Virus record (IMG/VR): IMGVR_UViG_3300037961_001086
Coordinates: 1-27,006 of that record
Length of the DNA stretch: 27,006 bases
Direction: 5' to 3' (one strand)
From: a virus
The position numbers were made by a program, and so were the translations under genes. Under the pieces are notes generated by a model. That model saw nothing but the letters and a program-made list of their open reading frames with translations, was not told the origin of the DNA and made no database searches. This document shows positions 1,920-26,850 of the stretch, in pieces (position 1 is the stretch's first letter; every line of letters begins with the position of its first letter).

Positions 1920-2854
1920 TGGCAAATAAAATACAGATTAAAAGAACGTCTACTTATAATGCCACAGATGTATCTAGTTTGACATTAGCATACGGTGAGT
2001 TAGCATGGTCTAATGGTAACAACAAACTATACATAGGTAAATTAGGTAGTGATAATAGTACAGTATCTACAACAGAGTTAAATGCTTTGATTGTAGGAGG
2101 GTTTACAAGTTCATCGGCTTCAGAATTAAACATTCTAGACGGTGCAACAGTACAAACAAGTGAGTTGAACGTCTTAGACGGAATTACTTCAAACACAGGA
2201 GAACTTAATTTAGTAGATGGTTCTTCAGCTGGAACAATAGTAAATAGCAAAGCAGTTATTTACGGTTCAAGTGGAGAAGTAAATGCTACAACTTTACAGA
2301 TTGGAGGAACATCAATAACTGCTTCAGCTAGTGAATTAAATAAATTAGATGGAGTAACTGCATCTACATCTGAATTAAATTTAGTAGATGGTATTACAGC
2401 AGGTACAGCTTCTGCAAGTAAAGCAGTAATATTAGATAGTAATAAAGATATTACTGGAATTAGAAACATGACATTAGCTGGAAACTTAACTGTTAATGGT
2501 ACTACTACAACAGTTAATTCAACTACAGTTTCTATAGGTGATAACTTCTTAGAACTTGGTGATGAGATTGAAGATGCAGGAACAGAAGCAAATGCTGTTG
2601 ATGTTGGTATCTTTTTCCCAAGAGATAATGATACAAGTGGTAGTGATTTGTATGTATACGATGGTTTAGGTTATGATGGTTCAGCAGCTAAATGGTTCTT
2701 CTTTAAAGGATTACCAGAAAAACCAGGTGCAGCAGCTAGTATTAATGTAAATGCATTAGCTAAATCACATACTATATGTGCAAACTTAGAAGGTATTAGT
2801 TCATCAGTACATAATACAATAGATCAATACGATATAGATTGCGGAACATTCTAA
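1919..2854 (+). CDS. tail fibre/virion protein with SELNxLDG repeats
   Basis: The 311-residue protein begins with a KIQIKRTS...LAYGELAW...KLYIG segment (residues 4-40), a layout seen at the N-terminus of many phage fibres and in Mtd-like receptor binders. Residues 67-160 carry five copies of a [ST]-x-ELN-x-[LV]DG unit. A Gly/Thr-rich strand region follows (183-206), then a C-terminal part with FLELGDEIED and a KWFFFKGLPEKPG loop. SELNxLDG repeats are typical of structural proteins in marine phages. The following gene starts immediately after the stop and shares the same N-terminal pattern, so the two probably attach at the same place or assemble together. Confidence 0.82.
   Translation: MANKIQIKRTSTYNATDVSSLTLAYGELAWSNGNNKLYIGKLGSDNSTVSTTELNALIVGGFTSSSASELNILDGATVQTSELNVLDGITSNTGELNLVDGSSAGTIVNSKAVIYGSSGEVNATTLQIGGTSITASASELNKLDGVTASTSELNLVDGITAGTASASKAVILDSNKDITGIRNMTLAGNLTVNGTTTTVNSTTVSIGDNFLELGDEIEDAGTEANAVDVGIFFPRDNDTSGSDLYVYDGLGYDGSAAKWFFFKGLPEKPGAAASINVNALAKSHTICANLEGISSSVHNTIDQYDIDCGTF
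2117..2398 (+). repeat. five SELNxLDG-type repeats in the fibre gene
   Basis: Within the 311-residue protein, units SASELNILDGAT, QTSELNVLDGIT, NTGELNLVDGSS, SASELNKLDGVT and STSELNLVDGIT follow each other, the third and fourth separated by about 35 residues. The DNA copies differ at many third positions, so this is a protein-level repeat rather than a recent duplication. Confidence 0.85.
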
Positions 2855-5380: not shown

Positions 5381-6489
5381 TGGCTCTTACTTCATCAGGA
5401 CAAATTAGTATGAACGATATTAATGTTGAGTTTGGTAGAAGTGGAACTACTGCTAACAGTTCATTAGAAGATTTATCTGATGGAACTGTAGCTACTATTA
5501 ACACACAAAATGCTAGTGCAGACAGACCAGATGGTAGTGCACCTCATGCTATGAGTGAGTTCTATAGTTATGACCATGACTTAGCTGGTACATCTTGGAG
5601 TACTACAGACAATACTGGATTAAATCTAACTGATTTACCAGGAGGTACTGGTACAAGTACCAAAGATGCACAGATGACAGTATCTAATGGTAGTGGTGGT
5701 ACAAGTTTATCTTTATCAACAACTGGTGGACCATTTGGTACATTTACAATGGCTACATCTTCTAGTGGAGACCCTGGTTTTATGGGTACAAGTAATAGTG
5801 GTACAAATTTTATAAGTGTGTCATCATCTAATAGTAATAGTTTATACACTGGACATAATTCAGGAACAAGATATATTAGAACTAGATGGGCTCACTCACC
5901 TGCTAATAAAGATGGTACAGGTTCATACACATTAACACTTACAAATAATAGTGTTAGTGCAACTGTTACAGGTAATATTACATTTGCTGGTGGTGGTGGC
6001 GGATTTGGTTTTTGTATTTATGAAAACATACCAGTTAATTTGAAAGAAGGAACTGCAAACATACATGATTTAGATGTTGGAGATATGATAATGTCTTACA
6101 ACTGGGAAACTGGAGAAGAAGAAGAAGTAGAAATATTACAAATAGAAAAAAGATTACATGATAACTTATATAAGATTATGCTATCAGACCCGAACGATGA
6201 AACAGATGGTGAAGAATTAAAAGAGTTGATACTTACACAAGACCACCCTGTATATAAAGAAGATGGTAGTATGGTATCTGATGATCCAAGTAGAACATCA
6301 GCAAACTATGATTTAGATGCAGCTGCTATACAGCCTAATGATTTGTTAAAAATATTAGATGGTAAATATTATGCACAAGTTCATAGATTAGAAGGATTTC
6401 CAAAGAAACATTGGACATATACAATTTTAACAAAGAATAATAACTTTTATGCAAATGGCGTACTAGTACACTCAGAGATAGGTGAATAA
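5380..6489 (+). CDS. tail/adhesin protein with C-terminal Hint (hedgehog/intein) domain
   Basis: The 369-residue protein starts with SSGQISMNDINVEFG, a small N-terminal pattern found in many marine phage virion proteins. A Gly/Ser/Thr-rich beta region follows (about 65-203), then a GGGGGFGF linker. The C-terminal Hint domain begins at C212 (FCIYENIPV). It has a block-A-like DLDVGDMIMSYN, a block-B TQDH (T286, H289) in LILTQDHPVY, and a terminal FYANGVLVHS. In splicing inteins the last two positions are His-Asn. Here they are H364-S365, followed by only EIGE, so splicing is unlikely. Known Hint domains of this type cleave or activate the bond before the Cys, so processing of a fibre or transfer to another molecule is possible. 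Start shares an A with the preceding TAA. Confidence 0.85.
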   Translation: MALTSSGQISMNDINVEFGRSGTTANSSLEDLSDGTVATINTQNASADRPDGSAPHAMSEFYSYDHDLAGTSWSTTDNTGLNLTDLPGGTGTSTKDAQMTVSNGSGGTSLSLSTTGGPFGTFTMATSSSGDPGFMGTSNSGTNFISVSSSNSNSLYTGHNSGTRYIRTRWAHSPANKDGTGSYTLTLTNNSVSATVTGNITFAGGGGGFGFCIYENIPVNLKEGTANIHDLDVGDMIMSYNWETGEEEEVEILQIEKRLHDNLYKIMLSDPNDETDGEELKELILTQDHPVYKEDGSMVSDDPSRTSANYDLDAAAIQPNDLLKILDGKYYAQVHRLEGFPKKHWTYTILTKNNNFYANGVLVHSEIGE

Positions 6490-7764: not shown

Positions 7765-8208
7765 ATGGGAGCACCACAGAGAGGTATAAAAAATAGAAAA
7801 GCAGGTAGAACAGGTATAATTGTTGGTACTGGAGGAGCTATTGCTTATGACTTGACTAGGGGTAGAAATATTACTGGTCAGAGTTTAGGTAGAGCTGCTA
7901 CTGTTACAAGTCAAGCACTTGGTGGCATGAGAAAGTTAGGATCGCAAATAGCTACTAATTTAAAACATGCATACGGAGTTGGTAGAGGTACAGTTAAATT
8001 ATTACCAGCTAATGCAGGTACAGGTAAACCGCCGTTTAGTAAAGACCAAGTAAAAAAAGCACTTAAAAAAACAGCTAAATATGCAGCTAAAAAAACAGGA
8101 CAAGCTGCTGTGCTTAGTGGACCAGCTAAACATCCAGCTGTTATAGGTACTATTGCAGCAGGTTCTACTGTTTATGATATGTATAAGTTTATTAAAAATA
8201 ATAAATAA
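7765..8208 (+). CDS. Gly/Ala/Lys-rich basic protein of unknown function (147 aa)
   Basis: AGGAGG at 7755-7760 precedes the ATG. The protein starts MGAPQRGIKNRKAGRTGIIV, has a small Gly-rich segment (GTGGAIAYDL), a Lys-rich middle (QVKKALKKTAKYAAKKTGQA) and a mildly hydrophobic end (AVIGTIAAGSTVYDMYKFIK). It could form amphipathic helices that touch membrane or DNA. I recognise no family. It pairs with the basic protein before it, 8 bases apart, suggesting they are used together in the particle. Confidence 0.7.
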   Translation: MGAPQRGIKNRKAGRTGIIVGTGGAIAYDLTRGRNITGQSLGRAATVTSQALGGMRKLGSQIATNLKHAYGVGRGTVKLLPANAGTGKPPFSKDQVKKALKKTAKYAAKKTGQAAVLSGPAKHPAVIGTIAAGSTVYDMYKFIKNNK

Positions 8209-8221
8209 GTGAGGATAATAA

Positions 8222-8419
8222 ATGGCAAAAGAGAAAAAACTAACATTACAAGAACAAGCTGAGCAAAAAATGCAAACACTTGTAGATCAACATAATGAAC
8301 TTGTTAATTCAGCAAAAGAAACTAATGCTAGATTAGCAGAAGTAAAGCAATTACTTGTTGAACATCAAGGATATATGAAGGGATTAGAAGCTTGTGAAGA
8401 GGACTGCAAGAATGCCTAA
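8222..8419 (+). CDS. small coiled-coil protein (65 aa)
   Basis: A 65-residue protein that is nearly all one charged helix (LTLQEQAEQKMQTLVDQHNE then ETNARLAEVKQLLVEHQG). The end, LEACEEDCKNA, has two Cys four apart. It precedes the three-TM holin and overlaps its start region by 8 bases, so a lysis-related or structural helper role is possible. GAGGAT lies before the ATG. No family recognised. Confidence 0.72.
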   Translation: MAKEKKLTLQEQAEQKMQTLVDQHNELVNSAKETNARLAEVKQLLVEHQGYMKGLEACEEDCKNA

Positions 8420-8783
8420 GTTAAATGTAATAACAGGTATTATTGATAAAGTTGCTGGTCATGTAGATAAGTTTACATTAGATAAGCAAGAGAAAGCTGA
8501 ATTAATTGCTGAAATTAACAAGGCTCAGTTAGAAGTAAATAAAGTTGAAGCAGGACATACGTCTAGATTTGTAAGTGGCTGGAGGCCGTTTACGGGCTGG
8601 ATTTGTGCTACTGCACTCGGATACCATTATATTTTACAACCATTGTTAACGTTTATATTATATTCATCTGGTAATCAAATAGAATTACCTGTGTTTGATA
8701 TGACTACGTTAACAACGGTCTTGTTAGGTATGCTTGGTCTTGGGGGAATGCGTTCATTTGAGAAAGTTAAACGATCAGCCTAG
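8412..8783 (+). CDS. three-TM holin of the gene-transfer-agent type
   Basis: The ATG at 8412 (123 residues) is preferred over an in-frame GTG at 8394 that lies deeper in the preceding gene; GAGGA at 8398-8402 fits it. A charged helix (LDKQEKAELIAEINKAQLEV) leads into HTSRFVSGWRPFTGWICATA, the hallmark of the 'holin of 3TMs' family described for gene-transfer agents (GTA_holin_3TM). Hydrophobic segments follow (LGYHYILQPLLTFILY and TTLTTVLLGMLGLGG). Its job would be to open the inner membrane for the lysozyme encoded at 12862, which is unusually far away. This is the most convincing holin in the window. Confidence 0.85.
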   Translation: MPKLNVITGIIDKVAGHVDKFTLDKQEKAELIAEINKAQLEVNKVEAGHTSRFVSGWRPFTGWICATALGYHYILQPLLTFILYSSGNQIELPVFDMTTLTTVLLGMLGLGGMRSFEKVKRSA

Positions 8784-8787
8784 GAGG
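8782..8787 (+). promoter_or_regulatory. ribosome-binding site that fixes a TTG start
   Basis: AGGAGG lies four bases before TTG at 8792 and overlaps the holin stop region. There is no ATG nearby that keeps the first metal-binding motif (D12-x-H14), so this site decides the start of the metallophosphoesterase. Confidence 0.7.
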
Positions 8788-8791
8788 CATT

Positions 8792-9559
8792 TTGAAATTA
8801 AAAAAACGTGGTATAATAATACCAGACCAGCATTATCCATTACAAGATAATGCAGCTGTAAACTGTGTAGTAAAAGCAATAGAAAAAGTTAAACCTAATG
8901 TTTTTGTAAATTTAGGTGATGTTGGAGAGTGGGAGTCTGTATCTGCTTGGAAGTATAAAGATAAGAAACTACCACCGTTAGAGTTTCAAATACCTATTAT
9001 AGATGAGGATATTAGATTAGTAAATGAGGGATTAGATGTTTGGGATAAAGTTCTTAAAAAAGTCAAGTGTAAAGAAAAGTATTTACTCCAAGGTAACCAT
9101 GATCTCTGGTTGGATAATTTTGTTAGCAAATATCCTTACATGGTTAATTACACGTTTGAAAGAGCGTGTAAAATAAAAGAAAGAGGATATAAGTACACTG
9201 AATATAATTTACCTATACAAATTGGTAAGCTTACTTTTTTTCATGGTGCCTATGCAACTACGTATCATGCGAAAAAACATTTGGAAGCTTATGGAGAAAA
9301 TGTAATATACGGACATACTCATGATGTACAGAGACATACATTGACTAAACTAGGTGGTAATATTGCTGCTTGGTCAATGGGTTGTTTGAAAGATATGTCT
9401 CATGAAAAGAATAGATGGTTAAAAGGTAGGCTACATAATTGGGCACATGCTTTTGCTATCGTTGATTGGTATACGAATGGAAAGTTTAAAGTAGAAGTAG
9501 TAGAAATAGTAGATGGTAAAACATCAGTTTGGGGAGAGATAATAGATGGGAATGTTTAA
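8792..9559 (+). CDS. calcineurin-like metallophosphoesterase
   Basis: The 255-residue protein uses a TTG start directly after AGGAGG. All motifs of the two-metal phosphoesterase family are intact and in order: D12-x-H14 (IPDQHYP), GDVGE (G42-D43), GNHD (101-104) in LLQGNHDLW, an FFHGAY His (H151) and GHTH (174-177). In the family these hydrolyse phosphomonoesters or diesters, sometimes nucleic acid. The substrate here cannot be told. It has no signal peptide, so it acts in the host cytoplasm or the particle. It sits between the holin and tail genes, and phages often keep such enzymes among late genes. It overlaps the next gene by 14 bases. Confidence 0.88.
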   Translation: MKLKKRGIIIPDQHYPLQDNAAVNCVVKAIEKVKPNVFVNLGDVGEWESVSAWKYKDKKLPPLEFQIPIIDEDIRLVNEGLDVWDKVLKKVKCKEKYLLQGNHDLWLDNFVSKYPYMVNYTFERACKIKERGYKYTEYNLPIQIGKLTFFHGAYATTYHAKKHLEAYGENVIYGHTHDVQRHTLTKLGGNIAAWSMGCLKDMSHEKNRWLKGRLHNWAHAFAIVDWYTNGKFKVEVVEIVDGKTSVWGEIIDGNV

Positions 9560-12347: not shown

Positions 12348-12862
12348 TGGCAACAGAAGCAAGCAATATTTTGACAATGGTAAGAACTTTTGCAGAGAGA
12401 CAAAAAGAAGAAGAGCTAGATAGACAACTTGCAGATGGACCGCTAGGATATAGTGGTGGATTAGCAGGTTTTATAGATGATATGACAGCAGGTGTATTAA
12501 CTAGAACTGCATTTAAAGAAGGTGAAGAAGCTGTTAAGGATGCTTTTGACACTAGAACTATGAAAGAAAAAATTCAAGATGAAGTAGAAGCATTTAGAGA
12601 AGTGATAGATAGTGGAGACTTTACTGCTATAGATATATTTGATTATGGTATAGCACAATTAAAAGCAAAAGGTGCAGATACAAGTGGAATAGAAAGTTTG
12701 TATCAGCAATATTTACAAGGAACAACATTAACTACAGTTGATGGGAATGGAAATAAAATACAATACCAAGACGTTGGACCTGTTTCTAATTCTACTAGTT
12801 CAGCACCAGGAGATCAAGTAGGTAAGTTTAATCCGTTCTTTAATCCTTATGGTAGGAAATAA
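12347..12862 (+). CDS. virion-region protein of unknown function (171 aa)
   Basis: An acidic, largely helical 171-residue protein coupled at both ends by TAATG. It has an AERQKEEELDRQLADGPLGY segment, a short Gly/Ala segment (YSGGLAGFIDDMTAGVLT) and a tail with KFNPFFNPYGRK. The family is not recognised. Its place between a tail gene and the lysozyme, upstream of the ejection-type proteins, suggests an internal or tail protein. Antisense open frames here are shadows. Confidence 0.72.
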   Translation: MATEASNILTMVRTFAERQKEEELDRQLADGPLGYSGGLAGFIDDMTAGVLTRTAFKEGEEAVKDAFDTRTMKEKIQDEVEAFREVIDSGDFTAIDIFDYGIAQLKAKGADTSGIESLYQQYLQGTTLTTVDGNGNKIQYQDVGPVSNSTSSAPGDQVGKFNPFFNPYGRK

Positions 12863-13359
12863 TGTTTTTAAATATTAAAAATAAATCATTCAAACAAAAG
12901 CTTTATGAACATATAAAGTTAAGAGAAGGTTATAAAGATGTAGTATATTTAGATACTCTTGGTAAACCTACTGGTGGTATAGGTCATTTACTTAGTGCAG
13001 ATGAAAAGAAAAAATATCCTGTAGATTCTATATTAAAAGAAAGTTTAATTAAAGATTGGTATGAAAAAGATATAGAGAAATCTTTAGAAGCTTGTAATGA
13101 GCAATGTAAAATATTAAATATTTATGATAAAGATTTTAAGATTGCATTAACGTCTGTTAACTTTCAACTTGGTACTAAATGGTTTAGAAAGTTTCCTAAG
13201 ACATGGCATGCACTATGTCATAAAGATTATGATTTGGCTATAGCAGAGATAACATATAAAAAACCTGGTGAGCCAGAATACTCTGATTGGTATAAACAAA
13301 CACCAGTAAGAGTAAAAGATTTTGTAGAAGCAATAGAAAATATTAAGGAGAGTGTATAA
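12862..13359 (+). CDS. T4-type lysozyme (glycoside hydrolase 24), endolysin or virion lysozyme
   Basis: The 165-residue protein has the T4 lysozyme catalytic set with exact spacing: E22 in KLREGYKD, D31 in VVYLDTLGKP and T37 in PTGGIGHL (T4: E11, D20, T26). The C-terminal half keeps NFQLGTKWFRKFPKTW and WYKQTPVRVKDFVEAI, matching the end of T4 lysozyme. It cuts the glycan of peptidoglycan. No signal peptide is visible, so release would need the holin. However, its position among virion genes rather than next to the holin leaves open a role in the particle during entry. Coupled by TAATG on both sides. Confidence 0.93.
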   Translation: MFLNIKNKSFKQKLYEHIKLREGYKDVVYLDTLGKPTGGIGHLLSADEKKKYPVDSILKESLIKDWYEKDIEKSLEACNEQCKILNIYDKDFKIALTSVNFQLGTKWFRKFPKTWHALCHKDYDLAIAEITYKKPGEPEYSDWYKQTPVRVKDFVEAIENIKESV

Positions 13360-13697
13360 TGGCACAAGATAAAAAGAAATCACCTGTGCAAATAGCAGGA
13401 GAAAATGAAGCTATGGCTGCAGATAATGTAACCGTAGATCCAAATTATGTTGCTGAAGTAGAAGCACAACAAGCAGAAATGGATAGTACTTTACAAGCTG
13501 AAAGAATTATAGCATTAGAAGAAGCTGAAAATAATACAGACCCTATACCTAATCTTGACTTTCAAAAAGATGTAGAAGCACAAAGACAAGCAACTAAAAA
13601 TGCAGCACAAGCAGAGATAGCAAAGTCATTTGATTTATTCGATATAGCAGAAGATTTAGGTTTAAAGTTTCAACCATTTAAAAACGGGGAGGAGTAA
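13359..13697 (+). CDS. acidic Ala/Glu-rich protein (112 aa)
   Basis: A 112-residue acidic protein with no hydrophobic segment. Long helical stretches rich in Ala, Glu and Gln (VAEVEAQQAEMDSTLQAERI and EAQRQATKNAAQAEIAKSF) end with a DLGLKFQPFKNGEE tail. It may be an internal virion protein or an assembly helper. Its acidic nature contrasts with the basic genes earlier. No family recognised; TAATG junctions at both ends support it. Confidence 0.72.
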   Translation: MAQDKKKSPVQIAGENEAMAADNVTVDPNYVAEVEAQQAEMDSTLQAERIIALEEAENNTDPIPNLDFQKDVEAQRQATKNAAQAEIAKSFDLFDIAEDLGLKFQPFKNGEE

Positions 13698-14275
13698 TGC
13701 CTATATTTGGAGGAGCAATAATTGGTGGTATAAAAGCATTAGCTGCTGGATTTAAAGGAGCAACTGCTTTATCTAAAGCTAGCATGTTATTATCTGGTGG
13801 TCAAATGGCATATGGTGCTTTTGTTAATAAGTCAGAAAGAGAACGAGCAGCTTCTGATAGAGCGGCAACAAGAAAGATGGCTATACAAGGACAGTTAGAT
13901 TTACGTGGTGCAGCTAAAAGTGCAGATGAACGTTCTCTAATAAGACAAGGTTTTATTAATGAAAACGTTGGAATACAAAGTGAAAGTTTTGCTAGAGAAT
14001 CTAGAGGTAGTATGAGGTCATTGGAGTCAAACATTGGAATGGGTGGACTATATGGTTCTGGTTCAGCTGATCAACTAAGACAAGATATGGCAGCTGAAAT
14101 AGCTTCAAGAGGTGCAGGTATGTCTTTAGCAGCATCGCAAGATAGATTCGGTGAAGCACAAAGAAGAGAAGCTGAGTTAAGAGATATACAAAATAGTATG
14201 TTAGAGTTATCTGTATATACAGGTAGAAACTATAATATATTAGATACATATGGTATTAGAAATAATTTAAGTTAA
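13697..14275 (+). CDS. internal virion protein candidate (T7 gp14-like size and layout)
   Basis: The 192-residue protein begins with a Gly/Ala-rich hydrophobic region (FGGAIIGGIKALAAGFKGAT and MLLSGGQMAYGAF). A long charged helix follows (SERERAASDRAATRKMAIQG), then a Gly/Ser-rich segment (IGMGGLYGSGSADQ) and another helix. T7 gp14, an ejected internal protein that forms a pore in the outer membrane, is 196 residues and has a similar N-terminal hydrophobic and helical plan. The next two genes include a giant protein in the place where T7 has gp15 and gp16. I infer an ejection role; sequence identity is not claimed. Confidence 0.68.
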   Translation: MPIFGGAIIGGIKALAAGFKGATALSKASMLLSGGQMAYGAFVNKSERERAASDRAATRKMAIQGQLDLRGAAKSADERSLIRQGFINENVGIQSESFARESRGSMRSLESNIGMGGLYGSGSADQLRQDMAAEIASRGAGMSLAASQDRFGEAQRREAELRDIQNSMLELSVYTGRNYNILDTYGIRNNLS

Positions 14276-14287
14276 AAGGAGTAAGAG

Positions 14288-14890
14288 ATGTCTTATAGTT
14301 CAAGAGTAATTAAATCATTATCAGATCTTGTACAGTCCCTACAACAGTACAATGCTAGTAAAGATGATGCAAAAGATATTGCAAAGGCTTTAATATTAGC
14401 ACAAGAACAAGCTAAGTTGCAAACAGATCAAATGTTGTTACAGAACGCAATAACTACAAATCAAGAATTAGTACAGAGTTCTTTGACAGACATATCTGCA
14501 ATATCAATGAGCGACCAGGGAGAGTTTTCATCAGCTGATTATGATAAGATGGTTGAGAGTACACCATTTTTTGCATTGAGACCTAACAGAAGAATACGTA
14601 AAAGTGCTACTTCTTATATGGATGCGTTCGATGCAGCAGATGCAACTAATCTTAATTACTATTCAAATTTAGAAGCTAAAGCTGCATTGATGGGTAGTGA
14701 TAATGTAGTAGTAGAAAAAACAAAAAGTTTAATTGATGGACAAATAAATCAATTAGAAAATTTATCAGCAACATTAAAAGATACAAAAAACAATGTAGGT
14801 TTTGTACAAGATGATAGATATGATAATTTAATATCAAGAGTAGATACTAAGTTACAACAAAAAATAGAATACAGAAAACGTTTAGACTAG
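14288..14890 (+). CDS. helical virion-region protein (200 aa), possible ejection partner
   Basis: A 200-residue protein with helical, Gln/Asp/Lys-rich segments (KALILAQEQAKLQTDQMLLQ, then LIDGQINQLENLSATLKDTK). There is no clear membrane segment. It lies 12 bases after the gp14-like gene and 7 bases before the giant gene, with GGAGTAAGAG before its ATG. Position suggests a partner of the giant protein inside the head or tail, in the place of a small second internal virion protein. No family recognised. Confidence 0.72.
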   Translation: MSYSSRVIKSLSDLVQSLQQYNASKDDAKDIAKALILAQEQAKLQTDQMLLQNAITTNQELVQSSLTDISAISMSDQGEFSSADYDKMVESTPFFALRPNRRIRKSATSYMDAFDAADATNLNYYSNLEAKAALMGSDNVVVEKTKSLIDGQINQLENLSATLKDTKNNVGFVQDDRYDNLISRVDTKLQQKIEYRKRLD

Positions 14891-14897
14891 GAGTAAA

Positions 14898-17800
14898 ATG
14901 GAATTTAGAAATCCTAATTTAAAACAAGCTATAGCTGGGTTTCAATCTGGTGCATTAGATCAAAGACGTTTTATAGTACAGTTAGATACAATCTATAGAG
15001 CCAACCCTAAATCTTTTACAGAAGAAGAAGTTGATTATATAGAAAAACAATTTAAGAAAACTGATATAAAATTTAACAGAGATTTAGAAGCAGCTGATGC
15101 TAATCTATTAAGCACAGCAAATCAATTTATATCTGGTATGGTAGAAGGTTTTACTACATTAGGTTGGTCAGAAGAGCCTGATACTACAGCAGAATCTATT
15201 GCTAATAAGTTAGGACACTTGATAGGGTTTGCACCTGATGTAGTAGCAAGTGTACTATCTATGGGACAATATGTACCTATTGCTACTGCTAAAGCTATTA
15301 GTAGAAAAAGTGCTGGTGCAGTAAGTAAAGGTCTACAAAAAGCGGGGGAGAAAGCACCTGCTATCTTAAGAAAAGAGTTAGCACCAGATACATTTGCATT
15401 ACAATCAATACCTATGAAAGTTGCTGATGTTGTTATGGACAATGTAAAAGCAAGTTTAGGTAGTGCTAATGTTACAACTACTGGTTATCTATCTAGAGGT
15501 ATATTTGCTAACACTAGATTTAGAGATATAGGAGAACAAGCATTACACTTAGGTGTTGCTATGGGTGTATCTTCTTGGAAAGAAGGACCTAAAGGAGCAG
15601 CAGAAGCAGGAGTATATGGTGCAGCAGCAGGTACATTGTTTGGTACTATAGGTAATTATGTCAATGTTGCACGTTTGATAGCAAATCCTAAGACTACACC
15701 AGTTGGACAAAAGATTGTTAGAGGTGTAGCTAAACGATTAGTAGAGGATGAAGAAAAATATAGAGCAATGAACATGCTTATAAGAGGTTCTCTTGGTGCT
15801 GGAGTACAAGGTGGTATGGCAACAGCACAGCAACTACCTGTAGCAGAACAGGTATATGAATATTTATTAGGTGCTTTCTTTGGTGCTAGTGCTAGAGATA
15901 GAGGGTTTATAGAAAGAACAAGATATATAAATAAAAACTTTGCTAAGTTTGGAGATATTACAACACCAGTAAAAACAGTAGAACAAAAACTTAGAAAAGA
16001 TCCAGACTTTCAAAAACTAAATAAGTTTGACCAAGACTATGTTATAAAACATATTGCAGTAACACAGCAACAAATATTTAATAATATAAATAGAGGTGTA
16101 TTAAATCCTGAAATAGCACAAGAAGTTCGTAGGATAGCAAAAGAATTAGGTATAGAGTTAGAGGTAGCTACACCAAAACAAATAGAAAAGATTACAGAAA
16201 AACTATCTGATAGTCAGATTATAAAGAAAGATTTAGAAGGTATAAAGTATGAGATTAGAGATGATAATGTAATACCAGAAGTGTTAAAAGGTGCAACTCA
16301 AGATTACATAAATGACTTATCATTAAAAGTAGATGATATGATAAGACTAGAACAAAATAAAGATTTGAATGAACCTCTTGTAAACAATTCTGAAATAAGA
16401 GATATAGCTTTAGAGATTAGAAAAATACAAGGTAAAGATGTTACTGATATAGGTAGAGGTAAGGACGAGATACTTGTTAATTTATCTAAGCTAGCAACAG
16501 ATTCTAAGTTTAATTTACCTGAATTTAAAAGATTGATTACAGAAAAATATCTAAAGAAAGTAGAAAACAAAGCAGAGTTTTTTAGAAAAGTAGATGATTT
16601 AAAATTAGGTAGATATTTAAAAACAAAAAAGAATGTTTTCAATAGAGCAGAGTTGACAGTAGATGTAGTAGATGCTGACCCTAACACTGGTGAAATAACA
16701 AAGGTAAATGTTTTTCCTTCACCACATACAGATTTAAAAGGTAATCCTGTTAATACTGGTAGTGGACAAAACAAATATAATGCAGCTATAAAAGCAGGAG
16801 ATGGAGTACCAGTAAGAATTATATTACGTAAATCATACATTATGTCTCAATTACATAAGTATGGTAAAGGTGATAATGCTATAGATGTATTTAGCAAAGA
16901 TGTAGAAAGTCCTTTAGGTTTCCATAAATTAAAAAAAGGTAATCCAGATTTTTTACCTAAAGAAGCCATAGTAAAAATTAGAAAAGCATTGCAAGAACAG
17001 GAAACTCCGTTGTATTTATTTGGTGGTGCTAAAGATAGTGGAGTATTGGTTGTACATAGAGTACCATTTACAGATGCACAATTTAGTTCTGCTAGACAAA
17101 GACAAGTGTTACGTGAGTTAGGTTTAAGTTCTAAGATTGTAAATGCAGAAGGCTATCAAGTAAAAGAAACGGTATCTAATATTTATTATTTATTAAGAGA
17201 GTCTGGATATATGGATGTTAATGATCCGATAACTGTTAGTAATTTAGTAAAAGGTTTGAAGAAGTTTAGAAAGCAACCTTTGTATGAGACTGTACAAGCA
17301 TTTAATAAATATAATAATTTAGCACAAGGTTCTGATATAAGATTAGAAAATGAATACGGATTTATAAAAGACATAGGAGATGAATCTACTTTTAAATTTA
17401 TACAGATAAAAGATTTAGAATCTAAGTTTGAAGTAGGTGGTGTACCTTCTAAGTCAGCTATAGATGCTGTAGTATATGTTAGGCAAGATGTATTTGACGC
17501 TATAAGAAAGAAAAATTATTTATCAAGTCGTAATGGTTTTTTGAAAATGGTAGGATTTAGTGCACCTAGAGATGGAAATGGTACTATATTATTAAAGACA
17601 GGTACATTTAAAGCTACTGAAAAAATGGATGCATTTATGCAGGCTAACAACATACACTTTATGACAGCTGAATCTGCAACAAAAACTAGCCTTGGTTTGA
17701 AAACTCATGACATAGTTTATAAGAATAATAGATGGGATTTTGGTACAGCAGATAAACAGATAAGACCTTATGAGATGCGTGCAGATGAATTGTATTTAAA

Positions 17801-20800
17801 CTTTGGTGTATATGAAAATTACTCTAAGTTAAATATGAGTATGCCTATATCTAAACAAATATTTGATAAAATAAATTATGAACAATTAGGTGAAGATGGT
17901 CCAGCATTTCGTGCTGCTTACGAAAAATTTGTTAATGAATCATTAGCTGGTGATCCTGCAACTAATAAAGCATTTGAAAGAGCATTAGTAAAACAAGATG
18001 GTAATTACGAAATACCAAATTTATTTCGTGTAGATATAGAATTAATTAATAGAGCATTAACAGTAGAACATATAGATACTCCTTTTGGTAGAAATGTATT
18101 AAAGAAAATTATGGAAAGAGGTAATGAAGATTATCATTCTTTAATTTATGAACAAGGAGATGTTATAGATAAAAAATTATTTGGTGTAGAGAATATAGAT
18201 ATACCTGACTTATTAGCACAAAATGATTATAGAATGTCTGCTATTACACATCCAGGAGTACGTGAGTTTGTAAATAAAAGTTTAACAAGTTATTTACATA
18301 TGCGTGCTATCAGACCTACAGCTAGCAATGCAGTAGATATTAAGTTAGGACCAGCAGATTTAGAAGTTGCAGCAGGCTTACAAGACAATCAAGTAAAGTT
18401 TGGTCAAGGTATGAAAAACTTTTTGATTAAAATTAAAGGACAATCTAAACAAGTAAGACTTGAAGATGCTTGGAATACATTTAAGGATATGAAAAAGTCT
18501 GATAATAGATATAATGATTATAAAGAAGCGTTAACTTTTATGGCTATGAGAAATCCTAATAGTGGTAATGGTGGAGTTCGTATATTAGAGATGGCTGGTT
18601 TTGTAGCTAGAGAAGGTACTGCTGCTGTTACTACATCTAAGACTGACTATTACTTAGGTGGTGCAGATAAAGATGCTGATAGTATTGCTTTATATCAAAA
18701 CATGCCTGGTATATTTAAAAAAGTATTTAGTAAATATGAAAGTGAATTGCAACGTGGTAGAGATACATACTCTTTTGAAAATGTAGATCCTCAAAGTACT
18801 TTTGCTACAGAGAAACTAATAGAAGAGTATCCAAATATTAAAGTATCAGAAGGCAGTAGAAAAGCATTAGAAGATTTATTAACAACAGATTCAAGAATAG
18901 ATGTAGCAAGACAAGCAAAGATAGGTAAAGTAAATATAGATTTTATTGTAAGTGGTTTTAATAGAATGCAAGTTGTTGCAGATTTAATACAACAAGAAGG
19001 TGGTGTAATAAATTCTAGACAAGCAATATTAAAAAAGGAAGGGGATAGTCTTGTACCTACTGGCTTGTTTGATAATATAAGTATTAAATTAAAGAAAGGT
19101 GTTGATATAAAGCAATTACAACTTGATACTTATCTTGGTATTAACTATATGGCTGACTCTGCAAACTTTGTAAAGATGGAAAAATATCCTGTAATTTTAG
19201 AAACGTTTTGGAAAAAATATTTTGAAGTAACTAATTTAAATGGTAATAGAAATATTACAGAGTTCCAACAAAACTTTCGTAATGTAGAAAAATTAAATGC
19301 ATTACAAACACTTCATAATGTAGTTTATAAAGGTAAAAATTTATCTAATAGATCTGTTGCAGACAAAGCTGCTTCAGATTATTTAGATGCTTTTGGTAAA
19401 CAGAATCATTTTTATGGTCAGTTAGCTACTGTGATTAATAATTATAGTAGTTTTGGTATTAATCCATTTAAATATTTATTTAGTAAAAACTTTAAAAACT
19501 ATAATAACTATGAAGTTGCAAGAGAATATACATTAAGACTTAGAGAAGAAATAGTAAAGAACGAAGCATTGATAAAACGTTTTGGTATATTAGATAATTA
19601 TACTAGCATTGTTGAAGCTAAAGCTGCTTTAGATAGACTGATTAAGAGTGAAAACTACTCTGCTTTTTATAATAAAATGATTGAATACCAATCTATGCAT
19701 AGGGCTATGGAAATGTCTAATGGTTTGATAAGAACATATGCTGGTAATGAAAGAAGTAAATACAGTAATGATACATTAGAATTAGAAATAAAGAGTCTTA
19801 TTGATAATACATGGACTATTAAATCAATGTTTAACAGAGATTTAAATTTAGTTCCTGAAGGGTTTGCTAAAGAAAACTTATCTATGGCAGACATAAATCA
19901 ATACATATATGTAACTAAAGCAAAGATAAAGGCTAAGTATAAAGACGAACCTTCGTTAGCTAAAGACTTAATAAATGTTTATGAAGCTTGGTTATTGGCG
20001 ACTCCTAAATTAGATAGACCATTAAATGAATTACAACAATCTGCATTAGATACTATTTTTAAAGAAAATAAATTTATAGAACGTGGAACTATAAGTGGTA
20101 ATACAACAAGTAAAGGTTTTGATAATGCATTAGTAAATAAACAAAGAGCATTTTTAGCTTATGCTGGTACACCTAATTATATGTTACAAAGTTTAGCTAT
20201 TAGTGCTAAAGGTAGAAGAGATTATTTTGATTATTTAGAAACACAATTAGTAGATAGATCAGAACGTATATCTAAAAGATTGAATGAACAAAAAAATAAT
20301 CCAGAAGAACACACATTAGAATCATTAGCAAAAGAAGCAGCAGAACAAGATGTGTCTGTAAAAGATAATATGAAAAGAATATTAGATACAGAAGCTTTGG
20401 TAGGTACAGTGTTAGAAAAGTTTGACTTTGTAAAAACTAATACTGGTAATAGAAATAAAGCAATAACTCGTGATGCAGATAAACAACTTAAAAGATTACA
20501 AAGTTTATTAAGAGAAAGTCCTGATGCTATTATGAGATTAGAAGAACAGTTTATAGAACTTACATATAGACTAGAAGGATTAGGTAGAAGATTAGATACT
20601 GCCAATGTAAAAGATTTAAAGTTATTTGTTGATGCATTAGAAGTTTATTGGAGTGCTAAGAAACCTGGTGATAAAGTGAAAAAGTTTTTTAGAGCACCTG
20701 GTGGTAGAGATAATATATTAAATTATACATACACTCAAAGAGATTTAAGACTAATGGAAAAAATGGAAAGAGAAACAAATCCTAGATTAGTTTTAGATAA

Positions 20801-23800
20801 GTTTGGTAAGATAGTACCAATGAGAATTAAAGTTCCAACAAGTACATTAGAGTTAGGTAGATTAACTATTGATAGATTTGATACGTTTCAAAAGACTATC
20901 AATGCAGCACAACAAGATAAGATAAATGGATTATTTGAATATTTAAACAATGACAATCCAAACTTAATACAATATAGAGATTTATTATTTGAAGCAGCTG
21001 TTAATAAAATAGAATGGAATGATGGTAAGTTTCCAAGTAATACCTATAATAAATTACAACAAGAAGCTATTAGAAAGGCATGGTCAGAAAGTTCTGAAGC
21101 TTTATCTAAATTAGAAAAAGAAGGTATAATGTTTGACATGTCTAGTCCAGGTGGTAAAGCTGTAAGAAAAGATGTTACTGCTAATGAGTATGTTGATCGT
21201 ATTGTAAAAGATGTAAAAGAATTTTTATCTGATATACAAAAAGTATATATTGATTCACGTGTTGATATGTTAGAAAAAACATTACCAAGAAGATCTAAAA
21301 AGTTTATTGGTTCTAATACTAAAGACAAGAACACAAAGAGATTAGAAGATTTGTTTTTAACTGAAACAGGGTTGATAGATTTGAATACTGTTAACTTATT
21401 GTTTAAAGATTTATCTAATAGAAATGTAAGTGAACGTGAGTATATTGGTAAGTTTTTAATTAGTATAAATGATTATAGATTTATTAAACATCACTTAGAA
21501 GTATTTGATAGAATACAATTTAAACTTGGTGATAAAATAGATTTGAATAAACCATTGAATAGTAAAAATAAAAATATTGTAAAAGGATTAGTCTTGCAAG
21601 AACTAAACTCTACTAAAAATAAACCTGACTATTATGAAAGGTATGCTGTCGGTAAAGTAGAAGAAGGATACTTTCCTAGAAATGGACATGGTAGAAATGA
21701 AGCTGAAAGAAAAGAGTTAGAAGCTTGGAATGAGAATAGAGCATTAGAACAATTAAAAGAAGCTGCTGAAGATCCAACTCAATTACCTGAAAAAATTAGA
21801 GTTGAAATGGAGTTAGGTAATATTGACATGCAACAAGCATTGTCTTTATATAGAGAACAATTACTAGGTAATGCAGCTAGAAATACAAACCAATCTTTAA
21901 CATCAGGACAAGCAGAAGCAGAAAGACAAATAATAGATTTGTTAAGTAGGCCTAACATAGATGGATTTATTGGTGATTATGCAGCAGGTAGTACATTAAA
22001 AAGAGGACAAGACTTTATGCCTTTTTATAGAAAAGATTTAGATGCATTGCGTAATTACACTGGTGGATTATTTAAAATGTGGTTTACAAACTTAGCTGGA
22101 TTAAGAAGTGAAGTATTATTGAAACAATTTGATTATGCAAATAAAGGTGAAACGTATGCAAGAGATTGGTCTAACTATATGAGAAATGCTTTTACAAATA
22201 TGATGGGACTTAGTACCTATAGAGCATATAATATACATGGTATTGAAAAGAAAGACCAACAAATGTTTAGAGACTTTATTGCAAGTGGATTTAAAAGAGG
22301 TAAATATTCTGGACATATGAAAGATAAAATTATTGATTTTGAAATTGCTATTGAACCATCACCTGTAGAAAAAAGAATTATATTAAGAAGACAAGATAAA
22401 AGTTTATCTACTAAAGAAAGACAAAAGGCTGCTAATAAAGAAATACTAGCATTGAAAACAAAACGTGCTAAAGAATTAGTTGAACAAGTAAATACTACAG
22501 GTAAGTATGGTACATTGTATCACTACACAAGTGATGAAGCAGCAGTAAGTTTCTTTAAAAAAATTGATAAATTATTTGGTGGTAGAATGTTTAAGGATCT
22601 AAACAAGATGAGTGAACGTGATAAGAACTTTGAAATCATTAGACGTATTAGAGACTTTAGTGATTTAGAAGGTAAGTTTGAGCTATTGACATTACTATCA
22701 CACCCTAAAACAGCTATAACTAATTTATATGGTGGTACTCAAAACACTATATCTGATACAGGTTGGAAACCATTTAGGCAAGCTAATGATACAGAGTGGA
22801 TGATTAAAAATTTATTTGATAATGGTAAAGCAGAATTTAGTTTTTTAAACCAACAAACTGGTAGGGTAGAAAGAAAAAGAATTAATACCAAAGAAAGAAT
22901 ATATGAATGGATGGAGTCTTTAGGTGTATTTGATCAGATGTTTTTAGACCTTGTTGCATTAGATAAAAACTTTGGTAGACAAGGACAAAGAAAGTTTTTT
23001 GAAGAGTTTATTAGACGTATGAATAAATCATACAGAGAAGGTATTATAACTACTGAAACAATACATAATAGAGAAGCTAAAAAAACATTAAGAGAAGTTG
23101 CAAGAGATTTAAAAATAGAAGTACCTGTTACTGAGTTAGGTGCTTTACCAATGAAATGGTCTGAAAGAATATTGCGTGGTAATGCTTTCTTAGCAAATTA
23201 TATAAACTTACATCAGAATGTTATAGGTCCTAATATTGCAAAAGGAATACCGTTTGATAGTAGAGTATTGACTAACTTTGCTATGAAAGGTATTGAAGCA
23301 TCTCAGTTTATGTATCAAGCAACCTTTAGACCTAACTTTGCCAACACATCATTAGGTCGTGTATTGACTAGATTCCAACCTTATGCATGGAATAGTATTG
23401 GTAGACGTATTAAATTATTTAAAGATGCACAACAATCTGGATGGAACAGAGAAGTATTAGCAAGTAAAAAGTTTCAAAGACAATTTACATTTGATCTAAT
23501 GGCTCTTGCTATGGCTAATATATTTGTAGCAAGTATATTTGAATATGCATTATCACCACCTATGAATTGGTTACAAGATAGTGCAGCATTATTATTTGGT
23601 GATGAGAAAGAAAGAGAACGTGCATTCTTTAGTTCATATCCATCACCTGTATTAGCACCTTTACAAATTGTTACACCACCTATTGGTAGATTTGTATTGT
23701 CGCCAATTACATCTATATTGAATGGTGATATGGAAAACTTTACTAAGTATCAGTTAGCTACATACTTTCCATTTGGTAGGTTAGGTAGAGATGCATATAG

Positions 23801-23942
23801 AACATTCAATAGTCCAGCTATGGCTGTAGATTTTATGACTGGATTACCTTTACATCAAGTTCATGAGTTAAGAAGAGATAAGATTGAACTAGATAAATTA
23901 GAACAACAAGCTAAAGAATTAGAAGAAGAGTTAGTAGAATAG
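14898..23942 (+). CDS. giant virion protein with two-barrel RNA polymerase core (probable ejected virion RNA polymerase)
   Basis: At 3014 residues this is one third of the window. Three Gly/Ala-rich hydrophobic regions lie at about 105-135, 215-268 and 293-334. The polymerase-like core lies at about 850-1350: DAVVYV (856-861), an LLKTGTF lysine (K900), an IHFMTAESATK lysine (K929), LYLNFGVYENYSK, R1218-N-P1220 with SG, a YLGGADKDADSIALY metal site (D1257, D1259, D1261), and AKIGKVNIDF (G1343-K1344). Order and spacing match the two double-psi-barrel polymerases of crAss-like phages and QDE-1/YonO relatives. The remaining ~1650 residues are mostly helical, with an LLSHPKTAITNLYGG segment near 2600 and hydrophobic segments near 2867-2886 and 2912-2935, ending in a coiled coil. 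I infer packaging and ejection. A gene start with GGAG lies 7 bases after the previous stop. Confidence 0.8.
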   Translation: MEFRNPNLKQAIAGFQSGALDQRRFIVQLDTIYRANPKSFTEEEVDYIEKQFKKTDIKFNRDLEAADANLLSTANQFISGMVEGFTTLGWSEEPDTTAESIANKLGHLIGFAPDVVASVLSMGQYVPIATAKAISRKSAGAVSKGLQKAGEKAPAILRKELAPDTFALQSIPMKVADVVMDNVKASLGSANVTTTGYLSRGIFANTRFRDIGEQALHLGVAMGVSSWKEGPKGAAEAGVYGAAAGTLFGTIGNYVNVARLIANPKTTPVGQKIVRGVAKRLVEDEEKYRAMNMLIRGSLGAGVQGGMATAQQLPVAEQVYEYLLGAFFGASARDRGFIERTRYINKNFAKFGDITTPVKTVEQKLRKDPDFQKLNKFDQDYVIKHIAVTQQQIFNNINRGVLNPEIAQEVRRIAKELGIELEVATPKQIEKITEKLSDSQIIKKDLEGIKYEIRDDNVIPEVLKGATQDYINDLSLKVDDMIRLEQNKDLNEPLVNNSEIRDIALEIRKIQGKDVTDIGRGKDEILVNLSKLATDSKFNLPEFKRLITEKYLKKVENKAEFFRKVDDLKLGRYLKTKKNVFNRAELTVDVVDADPNTGEITKVNVFPSPHTDLKGNPVNTGSGQNKYNAAIKAGDGVPVRIILRKSYIMSQLHKYGKGDNAIDVFSKDVESPLGFHKLKKGNPDFLPKEAIVKIRKALQEQETPLYLFGGAKDSGVLVVHRVPFTDAQFSSARQRQVLRELGLSSKIVNAEGYQVKETVSNIYYLLRESGYMDVNDPITVSNLVKGLKKFRKQPLYETVQAFNKYNNLAQGSDIRLENEYGFIKDIGDESTFKFIQIKDLESKFEVGGVPSKSAIDAVVYVRQDVFDAIRKKNYLSSRNGFLKMVGFSAPRDGNGTILLKTGTFKATEKMDAFMQANNIHFMTAESATKTSLGLKTHDIVYKNNRWDFGTADKQIRPYEMRADELYLNFGVYENYSKLNMSMPISKQIFDKINYEQLGEDGPAFRAAYEKFVNESLAGDPATNKAFERALVKQDGNYEIPNLFRVDIELINRALTVEHIDTPFGRNVLKKIMERGNEDYHSLIYEQGDVIDKKLFGVENIDIPDLLAQNDYRMSAITHPGVREFVNKSLTSYLHMRAIRPTASNAVDIKLGPADLEVAAGLQDNQVKFGQGMKNFLIKIKGQSKQVRLEDAWNTFKDMKKSDNRYNDYKEALTFMAMRNPNSGNGGVRILEMAGFVAREGTAAVTTSKTDYYLGGADKDADSIALYQNMPGIFKKVFSKYESELQRGRDTYSFENVDPQSTFATEKLIEEYPNIKVSEGSRKALEDLLTTDSRIDVARQAKIGKVNIDFIVSGFNRMQVVADLIQQEGGVINSRQAILKKEGDSLVPTGLFDNISIKLKKGVDIKQLQLDTYLGINYMADSANFVKMEKYPVILETFWKKYFEVTNLNGNRNITEFQQNFRNVEKLNALQTLHNVVYKGKNLSNRSVADKAASDYLDAFGKQNHFYGQLATVINNYSSFGINPFKYLFSKNFKNYNNYEVAREYTLRLREEIVKNEALIKRFGILDNYTSIVEAKAALDRLIKSENYSAFYNKMIEYQSMHRAMEMSNGLIRTYAGNERSKYSNDTLELEIKSLIDNTWTIKSMFNRDLNLVPEGFAKENLSMADINQYIYVTKAKIKAKYKDEPSLAKDLINVYEAWLLATPKLDRPLNELQQSALDTIFKENKFIERGTISGNTTSKGFDNALVNKQRAFLAYAGTPNYMLQSLAISAKGRRDYFDYLETQLVDRSERISKRLNEQKNNPEEHTLESLAKEAAEQDVSVKDNMKRILDTEALVGTVLEKFDFVKTNTGNRNKAITRDADKQLKRLQSLLRESPDAIMRLEEQFIELTYRLEGLGRRLDTANVKDLKLFVDALEVYWSAKKPGDKVKKFFRAPGGRDNILNYTYTQRDLRLMEKMERETNPRLVLDKFGKIVPMRIKVPTSTLELGRLTIDRFDTFQKTINAAQQDKINGLFEYLNNDNPNLIQYRDLLFEAAVNKIEWNDGKFPSNTYNKLQQEAIRKAWSESSEALSKLEKEGIMFDMSSPGGKAVRKDVTANEYVDRIVKDVKEFLSDIQKVYIDSRVDMLEKTLPRRSKKFIGSNTKDKNTKRLEDLFLTETGLIDLNTVNLLFKDLSNRNVSEREYIGKFLISINDYRFIKHHLEVFDRIQFKLGDKIDLNKPLNSKNKNIVKGLVLQELNSTKNKPDYYERYAVGKVEEGYFPRNGHGRNEAERKELEAWNENRALEQLKEAAEDPTQLPEKIRVEMELGNIDMQQALSLYREQLLGNAARNTNQSLTSGQAEAERQIIDLLSRPNIDGFIGDYAAGSTLKRGQDFMPFYRKDLDALRNYTGGLFKMWFTNLAGLRSEVLLKQFDYANKGETYARDWSNYMRNAFTNMMGLSTYRAYNIHGIEKKDQQMFRDFIASGFKRGKYSGHMKDKIIDFEIAIEPSPVEKRIILRRQDKSLSTKERQKAANKEILALKTKRAKELVEQVNTTGKYGTLYHYTSDEAAVSFFKKIDKLFGGRMFKDLNKMSERDKNFEIIRRIRDFSDLEGKFELLTLLSHPKTAITNLYGGTQNTISDTGWKPFRQANDTEWMIKNLFDNGKAEFSFLNQQTGRVERKRINTKERIYEWMESLGVFDQMFLDLVALDKNFGRQGQRKFFEEFIRRMNKSYREGIITTETIHNREAKKTLREVARDLKIEVPVTELGALPMKWSERILRGNAFLANYINLHQNVIGPNIAKGIPFDSRVLTNFAMKGIEASQFMYQATFRPNFANTSLGRVLTRFQPYAWNSIGRRIKLFKDAQQSGWNREVLASKKFQRQFTFDLMALAMANIFVASIFEYALSPPMNWLQDSAALLFGDEKERERAFFSSYPSPVLAPLQIVTPPIGRFVLSPITSILNGDMENFTKYQLATYFPFGRLGRDAYRTFNSPAMAVDFMTGLPLHQVHELRRDKIELDKLEQQAKELEEELVE
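17445..18947 (+). other. two-barrel RNA polymerase core inside the giant gene
   Basis: This region encodes residues about 850-1350. The first barrel holds K900 and K929, 29 apart; the second holds R1218, P1220 and the D-x-D-x-D triad at 18666-18680. In the family the lysines contact the incoming nucleotide and the aspartates hold catalytic magnesium. The R-x-P to aspartate distance here is about 39 residues, close to the 35 or so of bacterial beta-prime. The borders are estimates from motifs, not from a structure. Confidence 0.72.
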
Positions 23943-25056: not shown

Positions 25057-26850
25057 TTATATGTTTACTTTTTTAAATGTCATTGTTTCAGGATTAAACT
25101 CTGTAACAAATTCTAATTTACCGTCATCTCTAGATTTCTCAGACATAACAGTTCTATAAATTTCGTTACGATTACCCTTTAAAACAATAACTTTATCAGC
25201 TTTCTGCACTACATTTGATGAACCTTTAAGAGAGTGTAGCCCAACTGTACCTTGTGAAGCACTAGCTTTATTCAGGTGATGTATAGCAAAGATCAAAGTA
25301 TTATTACGTTGTGCTATTTGTTTCAATGCATCTATAATAACATTTTGTTTTTGTATATCACCATCAAACCTATCTACTTGCATTTCATCAGTAGTATCTA
25401 CTACTAATATATTAGGTTCATATTGTGCTACTACTTTCTTTACAGCCTCAATCTCAGGTGCTATCACCATTATCTTTAGATGACTTAGTTCATCTTGCAA
25501 AGAAAAGTCTGGATTGTTTTTATATTGTTCTATAATCCAATCACTGTTTTTCTTTTTAGCAATCTGACCAAATCTTCTCCAAGTTAATATCTCATTCATT
25601 TCTAATGATAAAAACAAAGTATCTTTCTTTGCTTTTGCAACTATGTTCTGTACAAAAGCTGTCTTACCCATACCTGTATCACCACTAAATATAATAAGTT
25701 CACCTGGTCTAAATGCATAATCTGGTGCACCATCAAATATATCTTGCATGTTTACACTTCTTGTTGTTAAGTCATTAGTAATATATTCTTTGAATGTATC
25801 TTCTAATGAACTAACATCACGTATATCTAATACATAGTCTTTACGTTTAAAGTGTATACATTTTGGATCACAATACTCCATTAGAATAGAATCATCACAG
25901 CCATATATATATTGATTATCATATATGTTTTGTACTGTTCTATTTATTTCATCTAATTCTAACTCACCTTGTGCCCATTGTATCATGCCGTTGTATGCAA
26001 CTATAAATGGAATACCTGCTCTTTTATATGAACTTATCATACGCATCATCTTCATATTTCTTGAACCTTGTGAAGGCCCTTCATTAAAGATGTGTTGAAC
26101 ACAAGTAACAACTGAATTAGTTTTACCTGTATTCATTGGTATTACATTTGAACTTGCACTTACTTTTGATACTATAGAACTTTGTAAATAAGGTTCTATA
26201 TATATATCTGAAGCATTAAATGTAGCATAAAAGTTTGTTTTTGTTTTGCTATATTTAGTATAAGCTGCTTTGGATTTTGCTATACTGCAAACTTCATCGT
26301 AACTTATTGTCCAAATATCATCTAAAGGTATCCATACCTTATATAGATTAGTCTTCTTATTTAGTGACCAATTTGATCTAATGATTCTCATTTTATCGTA
26401 TATGTTGTCACCAAAACTGAAGTGCTCTGTTAATGTAGATTTAACTTTTGTATGTAGGTTTTTATTAGGTTGAAACCCAAAAACATTAAGTAGCTCAATA
26501 TGATAACCACTACCGCTAAACCAAATATTAACATGCTCAGAATTAATACCATAATCGAAAAGCTCATTACAACAATGTCTAATATAATCTTGTAAATCAT
26601 TTCCATCGATATCTCCTTTATCTATATCTATTAATATTCTATCTAAATATGCTAAGCCATCAAACTTTCTTACTGACTTAGACAAAGCAACATGATTTTG
26701 TAAAGTGTTATCAAAAAGATAATATGATCTATACATTTCAGTACCAAAGTAGTTTTGTTTTTCTACTTCTAAATAGTCTTTGTAAGACATAACATTATTT
26801 CTATTTCTAATGCTACCTTTTACAACTTCTATTAGTCTGTTATCTTCCAT
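25057..26850 (-). CDS. archaeo-eukaryotic-type primase fused to DnaB/RecA-type helicase
   Basis: The 597-residue protein has two halves. The N-terminal half looks like an archaeo-eukaryotic primase: an ILIDIDKGD metal motif (D75, D77), IWFSGSGYHIEL (SGSGYH 112-117) and YDKMRIIRSNW (R155, R158). A Cys cluster (C318, C327, C331) may bind zinc. The C-terminal half is a RecA-fold helicase: GDTGMGKT Walker A (390-397), FLSLEM, ILVVD Walker B (D485), AIHHLNKA (H524-H525) and a LHSLKGSSNVVQKAD segment (539-552). One protein would both unwind the fork and make primers, like T7 gp4 but with an unrelated primase half. AAGG precedes the ATG. The next gene upstream ends inside its start. Confidence 0.9.
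   Translation of the reverse strand: MEDNRLIEVVKGSIRNRNNVMSYKDYLEVEKQNYFGTEMYRSYYLFDNTLQNHVALSKSVRKFDGLAYLDRILIDIDKGDIDGNDLQDYIRHCCNELFDYGINSEHVNIWFSGSGYHIELLNVFGFQPNKNLHTKVKSTLTEHFSFGDNIYDKMRIIRSNWSLNKKTNLYKVWIPLDDIWTISYDEVCSIAKSKAAYTKYSKTKTNFYATFNASDIYIEPYLQSSIVSKVSASSNVIPMNTGKTNSVVTCVQHIFNEGPSQGSRNMKMMRMISSYKRAGIPFIVAYNGMIQWAQGELELDEINRTVQNIYDNQYIYGCDDSILMEYCDPKCIHFKRKDYVLDIRDVSSLEDTFKEYITNDLTTRSVNMQDIFDGAPDYAFRPGELIIFSGDTGMGKTAFVQNIVAKAKKDTLFLSLEMNEILTWRRFGQIAKKKNSDWIIEQYKNNPDFSLQDELSHLKIMVIAPEIEAVKKVVAQYEPNILVVDTTDEMQVDRFDGDIQKQNVIIDALKQIAQRNNTLIFAIHHLNKASASQGTVGLHSLKGSSNVVQKADKVIVLKGNRNEIYRTVMSEKSRDDGKLEFVTEFNPETMTFKKVNI

Follow-up and report, generated by a model that had tools for sequence, protein, structure and literature searches.

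We analyzed a 27,006-nucleotide stretch of viral DNA (IMG/VR record IMGVR_UViG_3300037961_001086, positions 1 to 27,006; hereafter the window) in which a single open reading frame (ORF) of 3,014 codons, with zero internal stops (14898-23942, plus strand), most likely encodes a single-chain DNA-dependent RNA polymerase (RNAP) with two double-psi barrels, held within a giant virion protein that would be packaged, ejected and put to work in early transcription. We place the probability of this reading as a whole at roughly 0.78. As judged from sequence and structure model, the presence of a two-barrel RNAP core is well supported, because its catalytic residues are invariant in 35/35 family members, both barrels match a profile of known virion polymerases and the modeled fold matches solved enzymes of this kind. 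That the core would synthesize RNA is what we infer.

The first-pass annotation of the window had marked the interval 17445-18947, which corresponds to residues 850-1350 of the 3,014-aa protein, as bearing a polymerase signature, and translation of the ORF places all of its residues where they had been read. The sequence GTILLKTG contains K900, ESATKT contains K929, MRNPNSGNGG contains R1218 and P1220, YYLGGADKDADSIALY holds D1257, D1259 and D1261, and KIGKVN carries G1343-K1344. The D-x-D-x-D pattern formed by D1257-D1261 occurs only once in the whole protein. We gathered the family by searching IMG/VR with individual proteins and with alignments of increasing size, and by one scan of prokaryote genomes. 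Together these sources yielded 62 sequences that span the core, of which 35, including that of the window, are non-redundant; the other non-redundant members are 17-56% identical to the window protein over the core. K900, K929, R1218, P1220, D1257, D1259, D1261, R1333 and D1420 are invariant (35/35 members), G1343 is present in 32 of the 35, and residue 1344 varies (K in 27, R in six, Q in two). Spacing is similarly constrained: R1218 and D1257 lie 39 residues apart and R1333 and K1344 11 apart in every member, and K900 and K929 are separated by 29 residues or, in some members, 30. The GK at 1343-1344, also named in the annotation, is present and is better described as part of a predicted bridge helix whose invariant residue is R1333. 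The combination expected of a single-chain two-barrel RNAP was found, namely DxDxD in the second barrel, two lysines in the first and RxP at a fixed distance. Since the catalytic residues are kept in 35/35 members down to 17% identity, the motif set is, on this comparison of sequences, not a product of chance.

Where the gene is not cut off by a contig end, its product is one protein of 2,633-3,523 aa. All 15 related contigs searched carry the giant polymerase gene, and two of ~89 kb carry two. In the latter (G002, the 89.8-kb contig of L049, and G014, the 89-kb contig of L065) the two genes differ from one another and lie ~44-49 kb apart, which points either to two phage genomes joined in a chimeric assembly or to a genuinely double genome. 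When 50,697 phage records were searched by tblastn with the window core, zero relatives were found, and the outcome with a distant relative as query was the same; no cultured member of the enzyme family was found. No publication naming the family was found either, among openly available papers; PMC10770324 refers to 23 families and to a supplementary survey of two-barrel RNAPs in viruses, which could already include this one.

Profile-to-profile comparison, one of the checks proposed for the polymerase region, matched both barrels to the virion RNAPs (vRNAPs) of crAss-like phages far above shuffled and reversed controls. Against a profile of 57 such proteins, hhalign returned P 2e-5 for the family, or 6e-6 once inserts were removed. 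The insert-free score was 64.7, whereas none of 40 column shuffles exceeded 22.3 and reversing the profile gave 16.1. The alignment is in register at RxP/RxP, DxDxD/DxDxD, the bridge-helix GK/GK and ADSA/V-D-x-A-K-D. The lysine barrel by itself matched the same profile (P 3e-5), with M914 and K929 paired with M1050 and K1065 of phi14:2 gp66 (numbered with +1 for the first Met, which is absent from the translation used). The equivalence of K900 to gp66 K1027 is less certain than that of K929, as it comes solely from the K-K-M-K order in common and the loosest alignment. The signal appears only with the 57-sequence profile; the family profile was uninformative in hhalign against the lone gp66 or the lone gp96 sequence of phage P23-45.

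Congruently, an AlphaFold2 model of residues 620-1780 built from 34 sequences (mean predicted local distance difference test, pLDDT, 80.9; predicted template modeling score, pTM, 0.77) has a strand-rich segment containing both K900 and K929, a second segment in which strands flank RxP and the Asp triad on either side, and a 37-residue helix (1330-1366) that bears R1333 and GK. The top solved matches of the model in a Foldseek search of the Protein Data Bank (PDB) were 6VR4 (phi14:2 gp66, E 1.2e-10), the structure that the annotation had proposed for comparison, and 5FSW (QDE-1, E 1.4e-5). They were also the sole matches below 0.001; the 48 others listed are multisubunit RNAP entries with weak E-values. 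Among predicted viral structures, many matches were to proteins of crAss-like phages; these stood near the top together with unnamed proteins and one podovirus protein labeled RNA-dependent RNA polymerase. Model and Foldseek matches point to a fold with two barrels and a bridge helix, at a modest template modeling score (TM-score). Residue invariance, the controlled in-register profile matches and the fold matches of the model all support the two-barrel RNAP reading. In the active site proposed, the lysine barrel would provide K900 and K929, the catalytic barrel R1218 and the predicted Mg2+-binding D1257, D1259 and D1261, and the bridge helix would come next.

These results bear on two alternatives in which the core is not a transcriptase. 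Giant polyvalent proteins are frequent in phages (PMC5512222) and searches with the single giant protein against Pfam, PHROGs and PDB sequences gave zero significant matches, as would be the case if a large protein, structural or polyvalent, had lost polymerase activity or only looked like a polymerase. That explanation is barely credible when every catalytic residue is invariant at 17% identity and both the profile and the fold matches are specific and backed by controls. A packaged two-barrel enzyme could instead act as a primase or as a DNA polymerase similar to PolD, in which the two-barrel core also occurs (PMC10770324), and zero DNA polymerases were recognized among the proteins scanned on a sibling contig (described below). 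We regard this as very improbable: the closest relatives by profile and fold are the RNA-making gp66 and QDE-1, and the same genomes encode a primase-helicase of their own.

Like gp66, the window protein is a single chain in which a lysine barrel is followed by the RxP/DxDxD barrel, and the two share the M-15-K pattern, an R-D spacing of 39 and the bridge-helix GK, besides the best fold match among solved structures. Nevertheless, their identity in the fold alignment is ~10%, the likeness is detectable only profile-to-profile, and gp66 has 2,180 aa against 3,014 and belongs to a ~100-kb crassvirus, not to an unrelated podovirus-like genome of ~45 kb. QDE-1, the second-best solved match, has the same two-barrel single-chain core but is a eukaryotic RNA-interference enzyme and lies outside any virion protein. 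Phage P23-45 offers a precedent for an RNAP within a giant virion protein, gp96 (PMC10770324). Its FRNPVMGHGG and DFDGD motifs, with an R-D spacing of 38 (39 here), resemble those of the window protein, while its RNAP lies toward the N terminus of a 5,002-aa tape measure, in a Thermus phage with a long tail; no similarity was detected between the family profile and gp96, for which one sequence was used. The N4 vRNAP of the Schitoviridae has its polymerase in mid-protein (998 + 1,100 + 1,400 aa; PMC5512222), and thus shares the giant-protein plan with a central polymerase, but its module is T7-type and the core described here is two-barrel.

The window is part of a ~44.65-kb genome known in outline from a 44,807-base sibling contig, which carries a 99% identical copy of the giant gene. 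The window spans a junction whose two sides match the two ends of the sibling, and therefore the genome closes at ~44.65 kb. Also encoded on the giant-gene strand are TerL, portal, major head protein, tail proteins, a tail fiber, a holin-like protein, a lysozyme and two small proteins just ahead of the giant gene; the giant gene stands at the end of this structural block and the replication genes are on the opposite strand. No T7-type RNAP gene (PF00940) was found in 15 related contigs, in a scan whose T7 positive control matches at 1e-109, and Pfam gave no PF00940 match in the window giant protein. The suggestion that a two-barrel core is present where a T7-type polymerase might be expected is in line with these scans. 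Because the gene ends the structural block behind the lysozyme, its layout resembles that of the N4 vRNAP and a T7-type gene was found in none of the contigs scanned, the giant polymerase is probably packed in the particle and ejected to begin transcription on entry, with phi14:2 gp66 and P23-45 gp96 as precedents.

The layout that we propose for the giant protein comprises an N-terminal module (~1-620), the polymerase (~620-1780) and a C-terminal helical module (~1780-3014). Residues 1-350 show 38-45% mean identity per 100-residue block in 29 full-length members, which exceeds most of the protein, and the best-conserved part is residues 2600-2990, with a hydrophobic segment at ~2863-2885. The C-terminal module was modeled as helical with moderate confidence, low toward its C-terminal end. 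From their position, our guess is that both modules serve ejection. Synthesis of the giant protein would be late, alongside that of the structural proteins. It would be packed into the head, be ejected via the short tail before or with the DNA and refold at the inner membrane, where the polymerase would transcribe the oppositely oriented replication block until this task passes to host RNAP or other phage factors. The P23-45 RNAP has been proposed to stay at the pore and transcribe incoming DNA (PMC10770324); by analogy, the same could apply here.

A two-barrel RNAP could also be made after infection, outside the virion, and transcribe late genes as YonO of SP-beta does. YonO is a phage single-chain two-barrel DNA-dependent RNAP that transcribes late genes (PMC5467207), alike by description to the core studied here, and a sigma-70-like promoter precedes the replication block. 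We consider this alternative unlikely, given that the core is flanked by two modules conserved in giant proteins family-wide, that a gene closing the structural block would itself be made late, and that YonO is far smaller, at ~100 kDa. Returning to a packaged polymerase that transcribes early, four observations weigh against it. The global TM-score of the model to 6VR4 is low (0.35, root-mean-square deviation 23.6), probably due to alignment across large insertions and shifted domains. The C-terminal module has neither a PDB fold match nor a convincing Pfam domain. A motif common to the intergenic regions of the replication genes was not above shuffles, and no shared promoter was found there. 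Lastly, the promoter mentioned above, located in the divergent region upstream of the replication block, is near the sigma-70 consensus (11/12); sigma-70-like sites across that region are no more frequent than chance. With this promoter present and no shared phage promoter motif found, host RNAP may have a part in early transcription.

The polymerase core also accepts insertions. The gap between DxDxD and the bridge helix is 65-93 residues in most members (76 in the window protein, which has no inserted domain there) and 205-298 in eight. Pfam identified an AlkB-like 2-oxoglutarate-Fe(II) oxygenase in this gap in L065 (residues 1381-1515) and L067 (residues 1331-1467), whose ORFs are at L065:6422 and L067:365, and a cpYpsA SLOG domain in L054 and L059 (residues 1369-1531) and L080 (residues 667-808). 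Since the SLOG-bearing L080 sits on a branch very different and far from that of L054/L059, insertion has likely occurred repeatedly at this single site. Long insertions are present at the same site in L060, L061 and L079; a Pfam scan of those of L060 and L079 gave no match. Elsewhere, L012 has an insertion of ~115 residues (~819-947) ahead of the lysine barrel, with 45% identity to a hypothetical protein found in jumbo phages of Pseudomonas, e.g., Noxifer, and L064 and L065 have one of ~130 residues between the lysine barrel and RxP, with a weak DUF4326 match below the curated cut-off.

Table 1. Coordinates in the window of the giant polymerase gene, its parts and neighboring genes.
Feature	Position	Strand	Evidence or remark
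Giant protein with two-barrel RNA polymerase	14898..23942	+	Single open frame, 3,014 aa
Modeled RNA polymerase region, residues 620-1780	16755..20237	+	AlphaFold2, Foldseek
First (beta-like, lysine) double-psi-barrel region, residues ~858-972	17469..17813	+	Strand-rich in model; profile match
K900, first active-site lysine	17595..17597	+	Kept in 35/35 members
K929, second active-site lysine	17682..17684	+	Kept in 35/35; aligned with invariant gp66 K1065
Second (beta'-like, catalytic) double-psi-barrel region, residues ~1145-1267	18330..18698	+	Model strands 526-648; profile match
R1218-x-P1220	18549..18557	+	R and P in 35/35; aligned with gp66 R-I-P
D1257-x-D1259-x-D1261, predicted Mg2+-binding catalytic triad	18666..18680	+	35/35 members
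Predicted bridge helix, residues 1330-1366, with R1333 and G1343-K1344	18885..18995	+	37-residue model helix
GINYMADSA motif, D1420 invariant	19137..19163	+	hhalign: counterpart of crAss vRNAP V-D-x-A-K-D motif
Conserved N-terminal module, residues 1-350, Gly/Ala-rich	14898..15947	+	Putative ejection or membrane part
Conserved C-terminal module, residues 2600-2990, helical	22695..23867	+	Putative packaging or ejection part
200-aa protein directly upstream of the giant gene, structural block	14288..14890	+	ORF; no family match
192-aa protein, one of the two small proteins before the giant gene	13697..14275	+	ORF; no Pfam match
Lysozyme/endolysin upstream of the giant gene	12862..13359	+	PHROG endolysin, E 1.7e-13
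Primase-helicase, replication strand	25057..26850	-	PHROG DnaB-like helicase and primase/helicase

Among the neighboring genes, the lysozyme also resembles, more weakly, tail and internal virion lysozymes in PHROG, and the 192-aa protein is presumably similar to T7 gp14 in its size, its composition and its place in the genome. A tail-region protein at 5380-6489 ends in a Hint/intein-like third, which starts with Cys, contains TQDHPVY and ends in VLVHS; a Pfam scan of this protein gave no match. Adjoining JAB-like and ThiF/E1-like genes occur among the replication genes of a relative (L005:7306-8169 and 8166-8816). As for the type of phage, a crAss-like identity was rejected, the genome being of ~44.65 kb and its head and packaging genes unlike those of Crassvirales. 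Relatives of the portal, major capsid protein and TerL among the matches listed belong to other phages, with no named crassvirus, and a search for relatives of the tail proteins gave no match. The TerL relatives among the matches listed come from Mu-like, N4-like and other phages, going by the phage names, and several of them we take to be N4-like. The phage is uncultured and podovirus-like, with a genome of roughly 45 kb. A relative occurs in the Prochlorococcus single-cell genome AG-436-M02, on its own contig of 46,061 bases (G008:C10; L074, L164-L166), which retains much of the gene set (TerL 63%, portal 46%, metallophosphoesterase 70%). This contig is possibly a lead to the host or possibly a co-sorted particle.

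Beyond the window, we see about an even chance that these proteins constitute a new family of packaged two-barrel RNAPs in widespread, uncultured, podovirus-like phages of ~45 kb, filling the slot that the T7 fold has in N4-like phages and bearing, in some members, an AlkB-like or SLOG insert. Phage two-barrel polymerases inform the origin of cellular RNA polymerase, and the experimentally characterized examples cited come from crAss-like phages, the Thermus phage P23-45, SP-beta and jumbo phages; the family adds ~35 diverse natural variants for comparison. With this active site present in podovirus-like phages of small genome, phages that bring a starter polymerase of their own may be more common than has been supposed. 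The family also suggests that a polymerase can be packaged, and within a protein planned like that of N4, without having the T7 fold. A testable clue to the events at phage DNA entry into the cell lies in the inserted enzyme domains: if the reading is true, an AlkB-like or SLOG domain might act during the first transcription in the repair or sensing of nucleic acid or of nucleotides.

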